Assembly: GCF_014202475.1 (NCBI RefSeq)
Contig: NZ_JACHGV010000005.1
Location: forward strand, 124,001-188,000
Source of the DNA: Streptomyces paradoxus
GTDB lineage: Bacteria > Actinomycetota > Actinomycetes > Streptomycetales > Streptomycetaceae
Direction: 5' to 3'
DNA length: 64,000 nucleotides
Each line of letters starts with the position of its first letter. Position 1 is the first letter of the stretch. The notes beneath the pieces were generated by a model. The model saw only the letters and a program-made list of their open reading frames with translations. It had not been told where the DNA came from and did no database searches. The position numbers and the translations under genes are program-made. Below, piece by piece: positions 51,795 to 58,108 of the stretch.

Positions 51795-53438
51795 TCAGCT
51801 CTCCGCCAGCAGCTCGTCCGCGTCCATGATCCGGTACGCGTAGCCCTGCTCCGCCAGGAAGCGCTGGCGGTGGGCGGCGAAGTCCTGGTCGATGGTGTCC
51901 CGGGCGACCACCGAGTAGAAGTGCGCCTGGTGGCCGTCGGACTTGGGGCGCAGCACCCGGCCGAGGCGCTGGGCCTCCTCCTGCCGGGAGCCGAAGGTGC
52001 CCGAGACCTGGATGGCGACCGTCGCCTCCGGCAGGTCGATCGAGAAGTTCGCGACCTTGGACACGACGAGCACGCTGATCTCACCCTCGCGGAAGGCGTC
52101 GAAGAGCTTCTCCCGCTGCGCGTTCGACGTCTCGCCCTTGATCACGGGCGCCCCGAGGTGCTCACCCAGCTCGTCCAGCTGGTCGATGTACTGGCCGATG
52201 ACGAGGATCTGCTGCCCGGCGAACCGCCGCACGATCGCCTCGGTCACCTTCCGCTTCGTCGCGGTCGTCGCGCAGAAGCGGTACTTCTCCTCCGTCTCGG
52301 CCGTGGCGTACGCCAGCCGCTCGGAGTCCGTCAGATTGACCCGGACCTCCACGCAGTCGGCGGGCGCGATGTAGCCCTGCGCCTCGATCTCCTTCCACGG
52401 CGCGTCGAACCGCTTGGGACCGATCAGGGAGAACACGTCCGACTCCCGGCCGTCCTCACGGACCAGGGTGGCGGTCAGGCCGAGCCGCCGGCGCGCCTGG
52501 AGGTCGGCGGTGAACTTGAAGACCGGCGCGGGCAGCAGGTGCACCTCGTCGTAGACGATCAGCCCCCAGTCCCGCGAGTCGAACAGCTCCAGGTGCGGGT
52601 AGACGCCCTTCCGCCGGGTCGTCAGCACCTGGTAGGTGGCGATGGTGACCGGGCGGATCTCCTTGCGGGTGCCGCTGTACTCGCCGATCTCGTCCTCGGT
52701 GAGCGAGGTCCGCTTCACCAGCTCGTGCTTCCACTGCCGGGCGGAGACCGTGTTCGTGACGAGGATGAGGGTGGTCGACTTCGCCTGCGCCATCGACCCG
52801 GCCCCGACCAGCGTCTTCCCCGCGCCGCAGGGCAGGACGACGACGCCCGAACCGCCGTGCCAGAAGTTCTCCACGGCCTGCTTCTGGTACGGCCGGAGCG
52901 CCCAGCCGTCCTCGGCCAGCTCGATCTCGTGCGCCTCGCCGTCGACGTACCCGGCGAGGTCCTCGGCCGGCCAGCCCAGCTTCAGCAGCGTCTGCTTGAT
53001 CTGCCCGCGCTCGGAGGGGTGCACGGCGACCGTGTCCGGGTCGATGCGGGCGCCGACCAGCGGCGTGATCCGCTTCGACCGCAGGATCTCCTCCAGCACC
53101 GGGCGGTCGGTGGTGGTCAGGACCAGCCCGTGCGCCGGGTGCTTGGACAGGGTGAGACGGCCGTAGCGGTCCATCGTCTCGGCGATGTCCACGAGCAGCG
53201 CGTGCGGCACCGGGTAGCGGCTGTACTGCACGAGCGCGTCCACGACCTGCTCGGCGTCATGCCCCGCCGCGCGGGCGTTCCACAGGCCCAGCGGCGTCAC
53301 ACGGTAGGTGTGGATGTGCTCCGGCGCCCGCTCCAGTTCCGCGAACGGGGCGATAGCCCGGCGGCAGTCGTCGGCCTGCTCGTGGTCGACTTCCAGGAGC
53401 AGGGTCTTGTCGGACTGGACGATCAGCGGACCATTCAC
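51795..53438 (-). CDS. XPB-type DNA repair helicase (SF2)
   Basis: The 547-residue protein has an N-terminal damage-recognition-like domain and the helicase core: LRPYQKQAVENFWHGGSG, Walker A VVVLPCGAGKTLVGAG, DEVH box GLIVYDEVHLLPAP, LGLTATLVREDG, and motif VI EEAQRLGRVLRPKSDG. Bacterial XPB homologues are 3'-5' helicases related to eukaryotic TFIIH XPB. GTG 53438 was chosen because homology (NGPLIVQSDKTLLLEVD) starts there after AAAGGG. In mycobacteria its gene neighbours a Helicase_C_3 gene; here that partner is at 55416, about 2 kb away. Confidence 0.93.
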   Translation of the reverse strand: MNGPLIVQSDKTLLLEVDHEQADDCRRAIAPFAELERAPEHIHTYRVTPLGLWNARAAGHDAEQVVDALVQYSRYPVPHALLVDIAETMDRYGRLTLSKHPAHGLVLTTTDRPVLEEILRSKRITPLVGARIDPDTVAVHPSERGQIKQTLLKLGWPAEDLAGYVDGEAHEIELAEDGWALRPYQKQAVENFWHGGSGVVVLPCGAGKTLVGAGSMAQAKSTTLILVTNTVSARQWKHELVKRTSLTEDEIGEYSGTRKEIRPVTIATYQVLTTRRKGVYPHLELFDSRDWGLIVYDEVHLLPAPVFKFTADLQARRRLGLTATLVREDGRESDVFSLIGPKRFDAPWKEIEAQGYIAPADCVEVRVNLTDSERLAYATAETEEKYRFCATTATKRKVTEAIVRRFAGQQILVIGQYIDQLDELGEHLGAPVIKGETSNAQREKLFDAFREGEISVLVVSKVANFSIDLPEATVAIQVSGTFGSRQEEAQRLGRVLRPKSDGHQAHFYSVVARDTIDQDFAAHRQRFLAEQGYAYRIMDADELLAES

Positions 53439-53619
53439 GCGCGGCACCCTTTCTGTGGCCGGAGGGCTCGGACGGCTCGACAGCGCGAAGCCTCGGCCAA
53501 ACGTCCAGTGTGCCTGATCGGCCGCGTCGGGTGGTGTGATCTGCGCGTCCAGTCCTACTGAATGCCTATTCATCCCAACGTGTGGTGTGAATTCAGTTTT
53601 TCCATCGCGGCCCCGAAGA

Positions 53620-54849
53620 ATGGCGAAGGTGCAGAACCCGACGACCACCACGCTCGGATACGCCCTGTTCGCCACCCGCTGGCTCCAGGCCCCGCTGTAC
53701 TTCGGGCTGGTAGCCGCCCAGGGCGTCTACGTCTACAAGTTCTTCAAGGAGCTCTGGACCTTAATCCTGATGTGCTTGGGCGGGCACGCCACCGAGACGT
53801 ACGTCATGCTCGCGGTGCTCAAGCTCGTCGACGTCGTCATGATCGCCAACCTGCTGATCATGGTGATCGTCGGCGGCTACGAGACGTTCGTCTCGCGCAT
53901 CGGCCTCCAGGGCCACCGTGACCAGCCCGAATGGCTCTCGCACGTCAACTCCAACGTGCTGAAGGTCAAGCTCGCCACGGCGATCGTGGGCATCTCCTCC
54001 GTGCACCTGCTCCAGATGTTCGTGGACGTCCACCACACCTCCCGGCACGCCCTGCTGTGGGGGACGGTGATCCACATGGCGTTCATCGCCTCGGCCGCGA
54101 TCCTCGCCTACATGTCGGGGCCGATGGTCGCCCACACGGACCGCGGACACGCCGACCGCGCGCCGGTCCCGCCCGCGCAGGCCGGCGACCACGGAAGCCG
54201 GCAACAGACGGAACCGGAATCCGAGAGGCCCCCTGCCGCCGTCATCCCCCCGCGGTCCGACCCCGACGCCGACACCGAGGCACGGATCCGGGCCGCCGGG
54301 TTCCCGGCGCGCAAGGTGCTGGAGGACTTCGACCAGCAGCATCCCCGGGGCTTCGACCGGGAGGCTCTGGCGCGGCTCGGCAAGGCGGACTTCGTCGACG
54401 CCCGGCGCAACGTGGTCTTCGTCGGGCCGCCCGGCACCGGCAAGACCCACCTGGCCGTCGCCCTCGGTGTGCGGGCCTGCCAGGCCGGGCACCGGGTGCT
54501 GTTCGCGACCGCCGCCGAGTGGGCCGCCCGGCTCTCCGACGCCCGGGCCGCCGGCCGGCTCGACGCGGAGCTGACCGCTCTCGACGATCACCCCCTCCTG
54601 ATCGTCGACGAGGTCGGCTACACACCCTTCGACGCGGCGACCGCGGGCCTGTTCTTCCGGCTCGTCGCGCACCGGTACGAGCGGGCCTCACTGATCCTGA
54701 CCAGCGACCGCCCGCTCGGCCGCTGGGACGAGGTCTTCGGCCCGTCCGCCCCGGCGATGACGGACCGCCTCGCCCATCACGCCGAGATCGTGCGGCTGGA
54801 CGGCGACAGCTACCGGACGCGCCGCGCTACTTCGGCGTGGGCAGACTGA
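53620..54849 (+). CDS. Fusion: YqhA (UPF0114) membrane domain plus IstB-like AAA+ ATPase
   Basis: The 409-residue protein joins two unrelated families in one continuous frame. Residues 1 to about 173 are a YqhA/UPF0114 membrane protein (TRWLQAPLYFGLVAAQGVYV, LKLVDVVMIANLLIMVIVGG YETFVSRIGLQ, RPEWLSHVN-like QPEWLSHVNSNVLKVKLAT) with about four membrane helices. A Pro-rich linker follows. Residues about 223-395 are an IS21-type IstB ATPase core (RIRAAGFPARKVLEDFD, Walker A GPPGTGKT at 269-276, Walker B LLIVDEVG at 326-333, ASLILTSDRPLGRWDEVFG). The IstB N-terminal helical part is missing. No IstA lies nearby. ATG 53620 begins the YqhA homology. Function is unknown; it would be a membrane-tethered AAA+ protein. 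Confidence 0.85.
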   Translation: MAKVQNPTTTTLGYALFATRWLQAPLYFGLVAAQGVYVYKFFKELWTLILMCLGGHATETYVMLAVLKLVDVVMIANLLIMVIVGGYETFVSRIGLQGHRDQPEWLSHVNSNVLKVKLATAIVGISSVHLLQMFVDVHHTSRHALLWGTVIHMAFIASAAILAYMSGPMVAHTDRGHADRAPVPPAQAGDHGSRQQTEPESERPPAAVIPPRSDPDADTEARIRAAGFPARKVLEDFDQQHPRGFDREALARLGKADFVDARRNVVFVGPPGTGKTHLAVALGVRACQAGHRVLFATAAEWAARLSDARAAGRLDAELTALDDHPLLIVDEVGYTPFDAATAGLFFRLVAHRYERASLILTSDRPLGRWDEVFGPSAPAMTDRLAHHAEIVRLDGDSYRTRRATSAWAD

Positions 54850-55114: not shown

Positions 55115-55246
55115 TCAGATCTGCGGTGTCTCCAGGACGAGGCCGGCGACATCGATGCCCACCGCGGAGGCCGGGGTGACGAGCCCCCCGAACGTCATCA
55201 GGGCGACGGTGGCGAGGACGGCGGCGACTCGGCGGATAACGCGCAT
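55115..55246 (-). CDS. Small secreted peptide precursor B
   Basis: The 43-residue product is almost all signal peptide (RVIRRVAAVLATVALMTFGG, cleavage near ASA) and leaves about 15 mature residues, VGIDVAGLVLETPQI. The pattern G-I-x-(I/V)-x-G-L-V before a Pro near the end resembles precursor A. ATG 55246 has AGGAAG upstream. Because it is so short, coding status rests on the signal peptide, the ribosome site and likeness to A. Confidence 0.5.
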   Translation of the reverse strand: MRVIRRVAAVLATVALMTFGGLVTPASAVGIDVAGLVLETPQI

Positions 55247-55415: not shown

Positions 55416-57953
55416 TCAGCCCGCGTCGTCGGCGAGCTCCGCGACCCCGGTGATCCGGTGCAGCGGATACGTACGGACCTCGTCCGCTGTGTGGTCGAAC
55501 GCCGTGACGAAGCCGCCCTCGACGCGGACCGGGGCGATGACCCGCTGGCTGGCGGCGCCCTCGGCGTTGACGTAGCCGATCCACAGGGCCTCGCCGGTGA
55601 GGACGGCGGCCTGCATGGTGGCGAGGGTCTCGGCCGCACCGGTGCGGGGCAGTTCGCCCTGGGCCGCCGGAGCCGCGCCGGGCTTGCGCGGGGCGGTGGA
55701 GGCGAGGTCGCCGGCCCGGATGGCGCGCAGCGCGGCCGCGAGGAGGGTGCCGTCGGGGACCGGCGGGCCGTCCGGGACCGGCTCGGGCGCGGTGCGGGGC
55801 GGGGTGCGGTGGGCCAGGGCGCGGGTGATCAGCACATCGCCCTCGGCGGACTCGGCGGCCGGCGCGAACCCCATGGCCCGCAGGCCCTCCAGCAGCCCGG
55901 CCGGGTCGGCCTGCGCGGCCAGCACGGTCGGCGCGAGCCGCCGCAGCCCGAGCCCGGCGGCCCGCTTGTCGGCGAGGATCTCGCTGAGCACCGCGTCGTC
56001 GTCGCAGCGCACGTACGCCGAGGCCGCGCCGACCCGCAGATGGCCGTGCCGCCGGGCCACGTCGTCGATCAGGTACGCCAGCGGCTGCGGCACCGGCGTG
56101 CGGGAGTGCGCGGCGAGGAAGGCGTGCAGGTCGGAGGCGGCCTGCCCGGCGTCCAGCGCCCGCCGCACCGAGCCGGGCGTGAACCGGTAGACGGTCGCCC
56201 CGCCCTTGGACTCGACGTCCGCCAGCACACCCAGCATGTCCGCGAGCGGCCGCCGCAGGGGCCCGGGCGCCACGGCCGTCAGGTCGGCCTGGAGCAGCAC
56301 GTGGTCCAGCGGCTCGGGCAGCAGCGGCGCCAGCAGCCGGGCCGCGGCGGCGGAGGCGACGGCCTGCTCGGCGGGGGAGAGGGGAGCGAGCGGTGCGGTG
56401 CGGTGGTGGTGGACGGGCAGCTTGTCCCCCGGCCCCGACGGTTCCGCCTCCGGGCCCGGCGCGGGAGCCGCGGGCGCGCCCAGCAGCGCCCGGCCCTGGG
56501 CCGACAGCGCGCCCCGGCCCGTGACGCCCAGCAGTTCCGCCTCGGACAGGGCCCACTCGGCGAGCCGGCCGCGCAGGTCGTCCTCCCGCCGGTCGCCGCG
56601 CAGCGGCCGCTCCCAGCGCAGCCGGGCCAGCACCGACCCGGCGGCCGGGGCGGCGCCCTCCGGCAGCCCGGCCAGCAGCGCCAGCACCCGGTGCCGCACC
56701 TCGGGCGCCGCCGAGCGGTCCAGGCCCGGCCCGAGCGCCGACAGCGTACGGTCCTTGGCGTCCCGCCCGCCCACGAGACCGGCCGTGCGGGTCGCCGCCA
56801 GCCAGGCCGTGACCAGCCGCGACCAGCGCTCGGCGGGCGGCTGCTCCAGCCACTCGTCGTACGCCGGGGTCGCCGCGTACCGCTCGTCGGCCTCGCCGTC
56901 CGAGGCGATCAGGCCCGCCGCGTACGCAAGCTCCACCCAGAACGCGGCGGCCGGCTCGGGCACGTCGAGGGCGACCGCGGTCCGCTTCAGGTCCCGCACG
57001 CTCAGCCCGCCGGCCCGCAGCACCGCCGGCCCGCCCTCGTCCCAGTCCTTCAGCAACTCCTCGACGGTCGCGAGCGCGGTGTACGCCTGTCCGGCCGCGG
57101 CGCTGTCCACAACCTGTGGACGGTGAACGGCCGCCGCCTCCACGACCGGCGGCACCGGCTCGGGCGTCCGGTGCGCCAGGCCGCGCCGCAGGTGCAGGGC
57201 GACCTCGCGCGGCAGGACGACCGTCCCGGGCGCCGTCGGAAGCAGCAGCCCGCGGTCCAGCAGCCAGCGCAGCCGGGGCGCCGGATCGGCGGTGACCTGC
57301 CCGTACGGCGGCCCCCACACCAGGCGTTCCAGCACGTCCAGGGAGTCGGCCGGGGCGTCGGCGAGCAGCGCGGCCATCCGGGCCCGGTCCGTGAACAGCC
57401 CGGCCAGGGCGGTCACCGCGGAGACCGAGTCGTGCGTCGAGGCCAGCCCGGCGGCCGTGACGATCTCCTGGATCCGCCCCGGCGACATCCCGGCGGTGGC
57501 CTCCTGGACCGTCGGACCGAGCCCCGTCGGCGAGGGGTGCTGCGGGGAGGGGGCCAGCAGCTCACGCGCCGTGCGGACCAGCCGCAGCCGGTCGTCGGCG
57601 CCCCAGACCAGGGCCTGCTCGCGCAGCAGGTCGACGGCGTGCGGCAGGGCCGCGACGACGGCCGGGTCGGGGGCGTCCCCGGCCATGAGCCCGAGCAGTT
57701 CGCCGTACGTCGCCGGGTCCGCCGCCACGGCCAGCGCCTCCGCCGTCTGCAGCGCGAACCGGTCCAGCCGCTCCAGGGCCCGCACGACCGAGGCTCGGGT
57801 GCCGGCGCGGGTCGCGAGCTGGGTGAGGTCGGTGGGGACGGGCGTGATGAGATCCGGGCGGCTGCGCAGGAGCGCGCCCAGCGCGGCGTCGCCCCGCGCG
57901 CGGAGCGCTTCCGCGAGGGAGCGGGGGGCCGGGGGCCTGTCCTCGGTGCTCAT
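55416..57953 (-). CDS. Helicase_C_3 and WYL-like protein, XPB partner type
   Basis: The 845-residue protein begins with helical repeats (SLAEALRARGDAALGALLRS RPDL, RALERLDRFALQTAEAL), contains a Helicase_C_3 domain at about 600-710 (YRFTPGSVRRALDAGQAASD LHAFLAAHS, VRCDDDAVLSEILADKRAA) and ends with a WYL-like module (EALWIGYVNAEGAASQRVIA PVRVEGGFVTAFD). It lacks a helicase ATPase core. In mycobacteria the orthologue lies next to xpb (Rv0862c beside Rv0861c), suggesting joint function in DNA repair. ATG 57953 begins homology. The two-kb stretch to xpb holds the YqhA-IstB fusion and small peptide genes. Confidence 0.85.
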   Translation of the reverse strand: MSTEDRPPAPRSLAEALRARGDAALGALLRSRPDLITPVPTDLTQLATRAGTRASVVRALERLDRFALQTAEALAVAADPATYGELLGLMAGDAPDPAVVAALPHAVDLLREQALVWGADDRLRLVRTARELLAPSPQHPSPTGLGPTVQEATAGMSPGRIQEIVTAAGLASTHDSVSAVTALAGLFTDRARMAALLADAPADSLDVLERLVWGPPYGQVTADPAPRLRWLLDRGLLLPTAPGTVVLPREVALHLRRGLAHRTPEPVPPVVEAAAVHRPQVVDSAAAGQAYTALATVEELLKDWDEGGPAVLRAGGLSVRDLKRTAVALDVPEPAAAFWVELAYAAGLIASDGEADERYAATPAYDEWLEQPPAERWSRLVTAWLAATRTAGLVGGRDAKDRTLSALGPGLDRSAAPEVRHRVLALLAGLPEGAAPAAGSVLARLRWERPLRGDRREDDLRGRLAEWALSEAELLGVTGRGALSAQGRALLGAPAAPAPGPEAEPSGPGDKLPVHHHRTAPLAPLSPAEQAVASAAAARLLAPLLPEPLDHVLLQADLTAVAPGPLRRPLADMLGVLADVESKGGATVYRFTPGSVRRALDAGQAASDLHAFLAAHSRTPVPQPLAYLIDDVARRHGHLRVGAASAYVRCDDDAVLSEILADKRAAGLGLRRLAPTVLAAQADPAGLLEGLRAMGFAPAAESAEGDVLITRALAHRTPPRTAPEPVPDGPPVPDGTLLAAALRAIRAGDLASTAPRKPGAAPAAQGELPRTGAAETLATMQAAVLTGEALWIGYVNAEGAASQRVIAPVRVEGGFVTAFDHTADEVRTYPLHRITGVAELADDAG

Positions 57954-58108
57954 CCGGTCCACGGTAGCGGGTCGCCCCCGGCGGCCGGGCCGACTGTGAG
58001 CGGCCTCGCCTCCCCCGGACGCGGGACGGGCTTTTGGCCGCTCTGCCGGTCCTCGCGGTACCGTCGTCCGACGGCGTCACGCAACGCACCCGCCCCGGAG
58101 GGGACTTC

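Follow-up and report, generated by a model that had tools for sequence, protein, structure and literature searches.

Can the helper ATPase of a transposon become a working part of a membrane protein? The question is raised by one gene of Streptomyces paradoxus, located in a 64,000-nucleotide stretch of contig NZ_JACHGV010000005.1 (the window), in which a YqhA (UPF0114) domain is followed in the same frame by a Pro-rich linker and by the AAA+ core of an IstB protein. The transposon helper ATPases IstB, MuB and TnsC are DNA-bound regulators of transposases, and an initial annotation had offered two readings of the gene: an IS21 remnant that landed in a yqhA gene and was kept, or a domesticated AAA+ protein tethered to the membrane. 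The comparisons reported here suggest, with a probability of about 0.9, that the gene is a kept fusion of the YqhA and IstB AAA+ domains with a single origin. What is new is the architecture; both halves belong to known families. No published account of a YqhA-IstB fusion was found in the open-access literature.

Results

One open reading frame

The gene and its three parts are placed as follows.

53632..54849, + strand, the fusion gene, 405 aa from a probable GTG start (open-frame check and start comparison)
53659..54117, + strand, UPF0114/TIGR00645 (YqhA) domain, residues 14-166 in ATG numbering (Pfam, NCBIfam)
54118..54270, + strand, Pro-rich variable linker, residues 167-217, of low model confidence
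54277..54828, + strand, IstB-type AAA+ core, residues 220-403 (Pfam, NCBIfam and fold match)

No stop interrupts the + strand frame 53620-54849 between its ATG and its end, and the single frame claimed for the gene therefore holds; its start is probably displaced. The ATG at 53620 stands four codons upstream of a GTG at 53632 and is missing in some close relatives, and because L037 and L038, which have no ATG, show a GTG matching 53632 and no other in-frame start, the true start is probably this GTG rather than the ATG and the protein probably counts 405 aa. The third-position G+C of the frame (0.97 in the YqhA part, 0.87 in the linker and 0.94 in the ATPase part) is such as is expected of coding DNA in Streptomyces.

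The frame is equally intact in relatives. A scan of named genomes gave 303 relatives, and the best 80, all Streptomyces, carry the two halves fused in one frame (80/80), a set picked by score and hence biased towards full length. None of these 80 best-scoring relatives has its halves parted by a stop or frameshift, the defect on which the initial annotation would have fallen. A sequencing error or frameshift is thus ruled out within the limits of that bias, and chance or misassembly is ruled out by the in-frame fusion in these 80 loci and in 53 of 392 surveyed genomes. The fusion is one open frame in 52 of the 53; the apparent frame change in the remaining one, G325, is in fact a masked stretch within the linker.

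The YqhA half

The Pfam UPF0114 profile is covered end to end (positions 1-117 of 117) by residues 16-134, with an E of 1.4e-35 and 122.5 bits for a cut-off of 23.1, and the NCBIfam model TIGR00645 gives 173.9 bits for a cut-off of 144.4. The domain, to whose family E. coli yqhA belongs, is therefore complete and not "nearly complete" as first described. Its mean pairwise identity among 81 sequences reaches 92.9%. Three peaks of hydropathy lie within it.

53815..53871, + strand, hydrophobic segment of mean hydropathy 2.56, predicted helix 55-89
53956..54012, + strand, hydrophobic segment of mean hydropathy 1.63, predicted helix 107-132
54049..54105, + strand, hydrophobic segment of mean hydropathy 1.94, predicted helix 137-161

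Four long helices were predicted at low confidence in two AlphaFold runs, the first of them falling below the hydropathy threshold used. Because confidence in the predicted fold is low (mean pLDDT 59.6 when the domain is modelled alone), the topology and oligomer state of the domain are guesses; none of the 60 of 91 PDB sequence matches listed covers this part. No established function for UPF0114 was found in the open-access literature. The literature offers only hints: yqhA carries a mutation in an E. coli strain evolved to tolerance and its over-expression leads to H2O2 resistance (PMC10991953, PMC8228696), and UPF0114 bears a chloride-channel annotation that is unproved (PMC3246468).

The IstB-type core

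The Pfam model IstB_IS21 matches residues 220-403 (profile positions 50-235 of 238, E 7.3e-57) and the NCBIfam model IS21_help_AAA gives 215.7 bits for a cut-off of 200. The AAA+ part is predicted by AlphaFold with a pLDDT near 90, and its fold matches are led by 8q3w and 5bq5, the best being 8q3w_A (E 5.4e-17). The residues of its ATPase site were compared in 81 fusions and 20 IstBs, a set from which L001, L137 and L148 were left out and in which IS5376 was included.

54424..54447, + strand, Walker A GPPGTGKT, with K275 in 81 of 81 aligned sequences
54607..54612, + strand, Walker B D330-E331 (LLIVDE), with the Asp in 81/81 and the Glu in 80/81
54706..54708, + strand, sensor I position D363, Asp in 72, Asn in 7 and another residue in 2 of 81 fusions
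54766..54768, + strand, R383, kept in 81/81
54814..54816, + strand, R399, the sensor II arginine, kept in 81/81 and matched by hand to Arg237 of IS5376 IstB

The Walker A and B motifs had been called intact, and both are present with their residues kept in 80 to 81 of the 81 fusions; the Walker A motif itself takes a GAPG or GGPG form in 36 of them, and its Lys column is still complete. The switch Tyr is kept in 80/81, and R383 is presumably the arginine finger or subunit-contact arginine. The sensor I position is Asn in 20/20 standalone IstBs and mostly Asp in the fusions. The Walker B Glu is replaced by Ala in one of the 81 fusions and in the fusion of G044 (locus L176), whose Walker B reads DALGY, so that the catalytic Glu is gone, and whose nearest row in the tree is L115. 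The roles of the Walker B Glu, switch Tyr, sensor I and sensor II are taken from E167, Tyr170, Asn199 and Arg237 of IstB as described in PMC11208146, the positions, such as E331 with E167, being matched by hand through the PDB sequence alignment.

The dimerisation region at the N-terminus of IstB, the loss of which had been noticed at the outset, is indeed absent: the match begins only at profile position 50 and at residue 60 of the PDB chain, and UPF0114 and the linker occupy its place. According to PMC11208146, the N-terminal part of IstB forms dimers, raises the affinity for DNA and blocks contiguous ATPase oligomers, and the docking site of IstA lies between it and the AAA+ domain.

The charge of the core has changed as well, as judged from the same 81 fusions and 20 IstBs. 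Its net charge is +1.75 in the IstBs versus -1.32 in the fusions. The span 295-325, which presumably holds the DNA-binding initiator-specific motif, carries +1.45 in the IstBs versus -1.7 in the fusions; within it, positions 320 and 323 are basic in 18/20 and 20/20 IstBs but in only 16% and 4% of the fusions, and positions 304 and 313 stay basic in 100% and 98% of the fusions. The basic positions 285, 304, 313, 364 and 368 are retained or more frequent in the fusions, and the stretch 364-402 carries +0.28 in them versus -0.4 in the IstBs. IstB itself binds DNA, bends it and activates IstA, and these charges give at most a hint as to such activities in the fusion.

These charges bear on an alternative in which the protein would tether DNA to the membrane, its AAA+ face binding duplex DNA (chromosome, plasmid or incoming) and holding it nearby. 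The retained basic positions and the charge of 364-402 would suit such a tether, as would the behaviour of the isolated AAA+ module of IstB, which, according to PMC11208146, binds DNA at ~1.5 uM, the full protein doing so at 40 nM. However, the region contributing to this 30-fold gain in affinity is the one that has been lost, and with positions 320 and 323 no longer basic and both the 295-325 span and the whole core turned negative, we regard a DNA tether as unlikely.

Linker and selection

Over residues 170-216, the linker counts between 30 and 125 aa in relatives, and its dN/dS is ~1.08 (residues 172-217; 2445/3240 pairs). Since it is variable in length and fast-evolving, the linker would be a flexible tether and not a rigid lever. 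A long, variable linker of low model confidence might also suggest that the frame yields two proteins, an internal start or a cleavage in the linker freeing a soluble ATPase. We regard this as very doubtful. Only 21/81 sequences have a ribosome-site-like motif at an internal start, and the place of that start varies among those shown.

Median pairwise dN/dS values, obtained by the Nei-Gojobori method, which ignores codon bias so that only their ranking is usable, are 0.095 for YqhA and 0.348 for the ATPase among the 81 sequences, to be set beside yardsticks of 0.067 for XPB, 0.194 for the downstream gene and 0.23 for IS21 IstB cores (long matches at 55 of 80 loci for XPB and at 44 of 80 for the downstream gene; 14 IstBs; 41 loci in the shared set). 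The ATPase value, which the initial annotation had asked for, is thus below 1. The ATPase appears constrained, though less than the yardsticks and YqhA, and because its dN/dS exceeds theirs it may be partly relaxed.

Is the ATPase then a decaying passenger, a tail tolerated behind a YqhA domain which alone matters? Its dN/dS, above that of YqhA and of the three yardsticks, could be so read, together with the two Walker B Glu to Ala replacements (one of 81, and G044) and with standalone YqhAs that manage without an ATPase. However, the dN/dS remains well below 1, the Walker and sensor II residues are conserved in 80 to 81 of 81 sequences, and 80/80 loci are free of stops and frameshifts, albeit in a set biased to full length; we consider mere decay improbable.

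Distribution of the fusion

The search for the same fusion in other Streptomyces, suggested at the outset, was fruitful: it is found in 53 of 392 genomes (~14%), with a single match in 37 and two matches in one place in 16, a hand count which may be a lower bound since few candidates were scored per genome. The 392 genomes were an even draw across Streptomyces. Species that carry the gene include S. coeruleorubidus and S. iakyrus. Both matches report an identical frame length in 15 of the 16 two-match genomes, the remaining one being G325, and in three further genomes (G032, G081, G139) the locus is interrupted by contig ends. The fusion is no local accident and is widespread in the genus, though in a minority of species; as only about 14% of the sampled genomes have it, the gene is dispensable for Streptomyces.

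The UPF0114 model alone matches 33 of 199 Streptomyces genomes, in frames of at least 411 aa for 30 of them, at contig ends for two and in a divergent standalone protein for the last (G012). With 30 of 33 matches in fusion-sized frames, UPF0114 is mostly seen as a fusion in Streptomyces, and the halves are not always separate genes: standalone yqhA exists but is rarer in this 199-genome sample. Among the 392 genomes, a standalone YqhA with no fusion is carried by G241, G300 and G012. Four Streptomyces genomes, one of them with the fusion as well, and two from a different family within the order carry standalone YqhAs of 71-80% identity, each with a short tail; unlike the fusion, the standalone actinobacterial yqhA genes that were read have a tail without ATPase.

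Two genomes show departures of their own. In G217 (L126, 6034-6600) only the ATPase half is present, near xpb, from which it is separated by ~5.9 kb of other DNA; it groups with the fused ATPases in the tree and has the look of a fusion that was naturally disrupted. In G367 (L121, 6723-7430) a second, standalone YqhA lies beside the fusion and reads GGETF where the fused relatives have GGYETF; lacking residues conserved in these, it may be decaying.

No fusion was found outside Streptomyces among 40 matching genomes, of which seven loci were read and the others judged by frame length. Only three of these genomes, G589, G558 and G536, from other families, had long enough frames, and they were rejected as fusions, being standalone YqhAs preceded by an open stretch that arose by chance. 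Among 50,697 phage records 63 match and none covers 80% of the query in one place; no place covering 80% of the query occurs among the matches listed for 72,556 plasmid records.

Neighbourhood

Two genes flank the fusion in the window.

51795..53438, - strand, DNA repair helicase XPB, the divergent neighbour (NF045503, 869 bits, cut-off 610)
55416..57962, - strand, an 848-aa gene, the neighbour on the other side, near xpb in some fusion-free genomes

The 848-aa protein, which has no NCBIfam match at E 1e-10, is presumably helicase-associated. At least one of the two neighbours is present at 58 of the 80 best-scoring loci, and both at 55. The other 22 loci have different neighbours, with at least five contexts common to two or more loci: OsmC and MarR type families (eight loci), dehydrogenases (L095, L112), an MMPL gene (L107, L108) and others, the families having been read in one locus of each context. 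Ten neighbours were identified from six of these 22 loci, of which nine belong to metabolism, regulation or transport and one encodes a domain of unknown function.

The corresponding site was sought in genomes without the fusion, 18 of which were searched for xpb and 16 fetched. In these 16, the stretch at this site contains neither half. Both xpb and the 848-aa gene lie within the stretch read in 14. The gap between them is 86-135 bases in G255, G040 and G208, which represents an empty site, whilst in the other 11 it ranges from 179 to 4255 bases; as it differs so widely without the fusion, the interval is variable in itself. In the ATPase tree, the 58 loci at the xpb site form with the window and L069 a group of 60 (99/96), the other 21 lying outside. 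Since the tree thus mirrors the neighbour contexts, the gene appears to travel as a unit. The dS matrices of the ATPase and the downstream gene agree over 41 loci (Mantel r 0.65, for a null maximum of 0.24 in 500), which fits joint inheritance; a joint transfer of linked genes would agree too.

Patchy presence and neighbours that change in one part of the tree are also what one would look for in an anti-phage or stress alarm, in which the ATPase would be the sensor and the membrane domain the effector, ATPase assembly triggering a change in the membrane; the faster evolution of the ATPase relative to the membrane part would be sensor-like. Against this, one chromosomal locus holds 58 of the 80 best-scoring loci, YqhA is found also alone, and no defence gene is present among the ten neighbours identified at other loci, described above, or the two window neighbours, the latter as judged by NCBIfam. 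The only strong PADLOC match on the fusion is to the DrmD model PDLC02630 (E 1.2e-42) and covers the IstB core alone, eight other matches having an E of 0.0002 or more; PDLC02630 may wrongly flag IS21 helpers as defence genes. An alarm function is, in our opinion, quite unlikely.

Other features of these regions were noticed. A 20-base element, GGCCAAACNTCCAGTGTGCC, at 53495-53514 upstream of xpb, occurs with 0 mismatches in 69 of 179 loci fetched (some of which overlap), including the fusion-free L158, L161 and L162, and might serve xpb as a promoter or operator. A frame on the - strand (55115-55246), located between the 848-aa gene and the fusion, encodes a 43-aa secreted-like peptide, with matches in part of the relatives. 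Elsewhere, two genomes of the same order (L119, L120) have a standalone yqhA directly 3' of, and co-oriented with, a gene of the LtrA family, and in two genomes of another family (L156, L157) it adjoins a TerC gene on the opposite strand, LtrA and TerC both being membrane proteins. No constant partner of standalone yqhA was found among ten loci examined.

Origin from an IS21 helper

The absence of IstA nearby, already noticed, extends beyond the window: tblastn with five IstA proteins, all of which pass the IS21 transposase cut-off, found no hit either there or at any of the 80 named loci. The nearest IstBs read (L131-L145) are 59-65% identical over the core, and two plasmid copies 65.8%; the usual N-terminal region is present in 14 of the 15 loci L131-L145, L137 being without it, and IS21 transposases were confirmed next to five of them.

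A single branch separates the fused sequences from the IstBs in the ATPase trees. For 81 fused sequences against 15 IstBs, a tree from which 7 of 22 IstB loci and six plasmid IstBs are absent, this branch has a support of 99/91 and is recovered in 98% of 200 bootstrap trees. With 26 IstBs, a set including six actinobacterial plasmid IstBs and IS5376 and excluding L001, L137 and L148, it has 100/99 and 100% of bootstrap trees, and with 89 fused rows against the same 26, eight rows being added of which one is the ATPase-only copy of G217, 99/91 and 100% of 200 bootstrap trees. G094, G187 and G044, which diverge most among the fusions read, fall inside the fused-ATPase group. One fusion event is the simplest reading of these trees, and the simplest course would be the joining of a yqhA tail to an istB core, the fusion picking up IstB at the AExRIRAA.FP stretch that begins the AAA+ part. 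The YqhA tree does not set the fused rows apart by one branch: four standalone Streptomyces YqhAs lie among them with weak support, and the ATPase half may later have been lost. With the small variation and long outgroup branches of this tree, the standalone genes may be either ancestral or products of loss.

A gene derived from the actinobacterial IS21 IstB group, with R383 kept, could conceivably act on its source, sequestering or poisoning the IstA or IstB of a resident IS21. However, a close IstB is present in 6 of 53 fusion genomes versus 18 of 339 others (Fisher p 0.12), a trend opposite to the one such a control would give; here a close IstB means 58% identity or more, and the 24 genomes were counted by hand with four candidates scored per genome, so that copies may be missed. 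The N-terminal domain that flanks the IstA docking site, as located in PMC11208146, is moreover missing from the fusion, and control of IS21 is very improbable.

Discussion

The two readings first offered, a yqhA gene that retained an IS21 remnant and a domesticated AAA+ protein, are both supported and become stages of one story, in view of the one-sided ATPase branch and the conserved site. Domestication is further consistent with a dN/dS below 1 in both domains and with the loss of the IstB N-terminal region. Membrane location, ATPase activity and mechanism are what we infer from the observed architecture and its conservation.

In the model we propose, the YqhA part would be a membrane domain of four helices whose two ends both face the inside, and the ATPase would be cytosolic: the number of helices being even, the tail would lie on the side of the N-terminus, presumably the cytosol. 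YqhA would take over the subunit-gathering role of the lost IstB region. Upon ATP binding, the AAA+ domains would assemble side by side beneath the membrane, under a YqhA oligomer, and, freed from the inverted dimers of IstB, they could stack as TnsC and MuB do. ATP hydrolysis would dismantle this assembly, and the cycle would switch or remodel the YqhA domain or a membrane partner. Taken as a whole chain, this model of a domesticated AAA+ protein, tethered to the membrane and acting through its ATP-dependent assembly on YqhA or on a partner in the membrane, is a possibility to which we give somewhat less than even odds. The more specific proposal, that a transposon ATPase became an ATP-powered membrane regulator in which YqhA replaces the dimerisation domain and the AAA+ assembly gates or remodels a membrane complex, is more tentative and somewhat less likely.

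The fusion can be situated among known systems. The IS21 helper IstB (IS5376; 8q3w, 8q4d, 5bq5) is the best match of its ATPase in both sequence and fold and shares with it the AAA+ core, the Walker A and B motifs, the switch Tyr and sensor II. The fusion differs from it by YqhA in place of the N-terminal dimerisation region, by the lack of any IstA found, by a sensor I that is mostly Asp and by the loss of two basic positions. The AAA+ loaders of the DnaC/DnaI/DnaA family have a related fold and give weaker matches; they are replication proteins without a YqhA domain. In membrane-anchored AAA+ proteins of the FtsH type a membrane segment is joined to a cytosolic AAA+ domain, but the resemblance is in layout only: FtsH is a distant fold match and, unlike the fusion, has a protease domain and belongs to a different AAA+ branch.

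In conclusion, our observations would point to a new fate for transposon genes, in which a helper ATPase is recruited into a membrane protein, its ATPase site being kept and its dimerisation and transposase-docking region lost. The natural fusion suggests that this membrane protein works with a nucleotide-driven partner in the species that carry it, and it offers a handle on UPF0114. If the more specific proposal is true, it would add a new class to the membrane AAA+ machines, and the UPF0114 family would gain a testable energy-coupled role.
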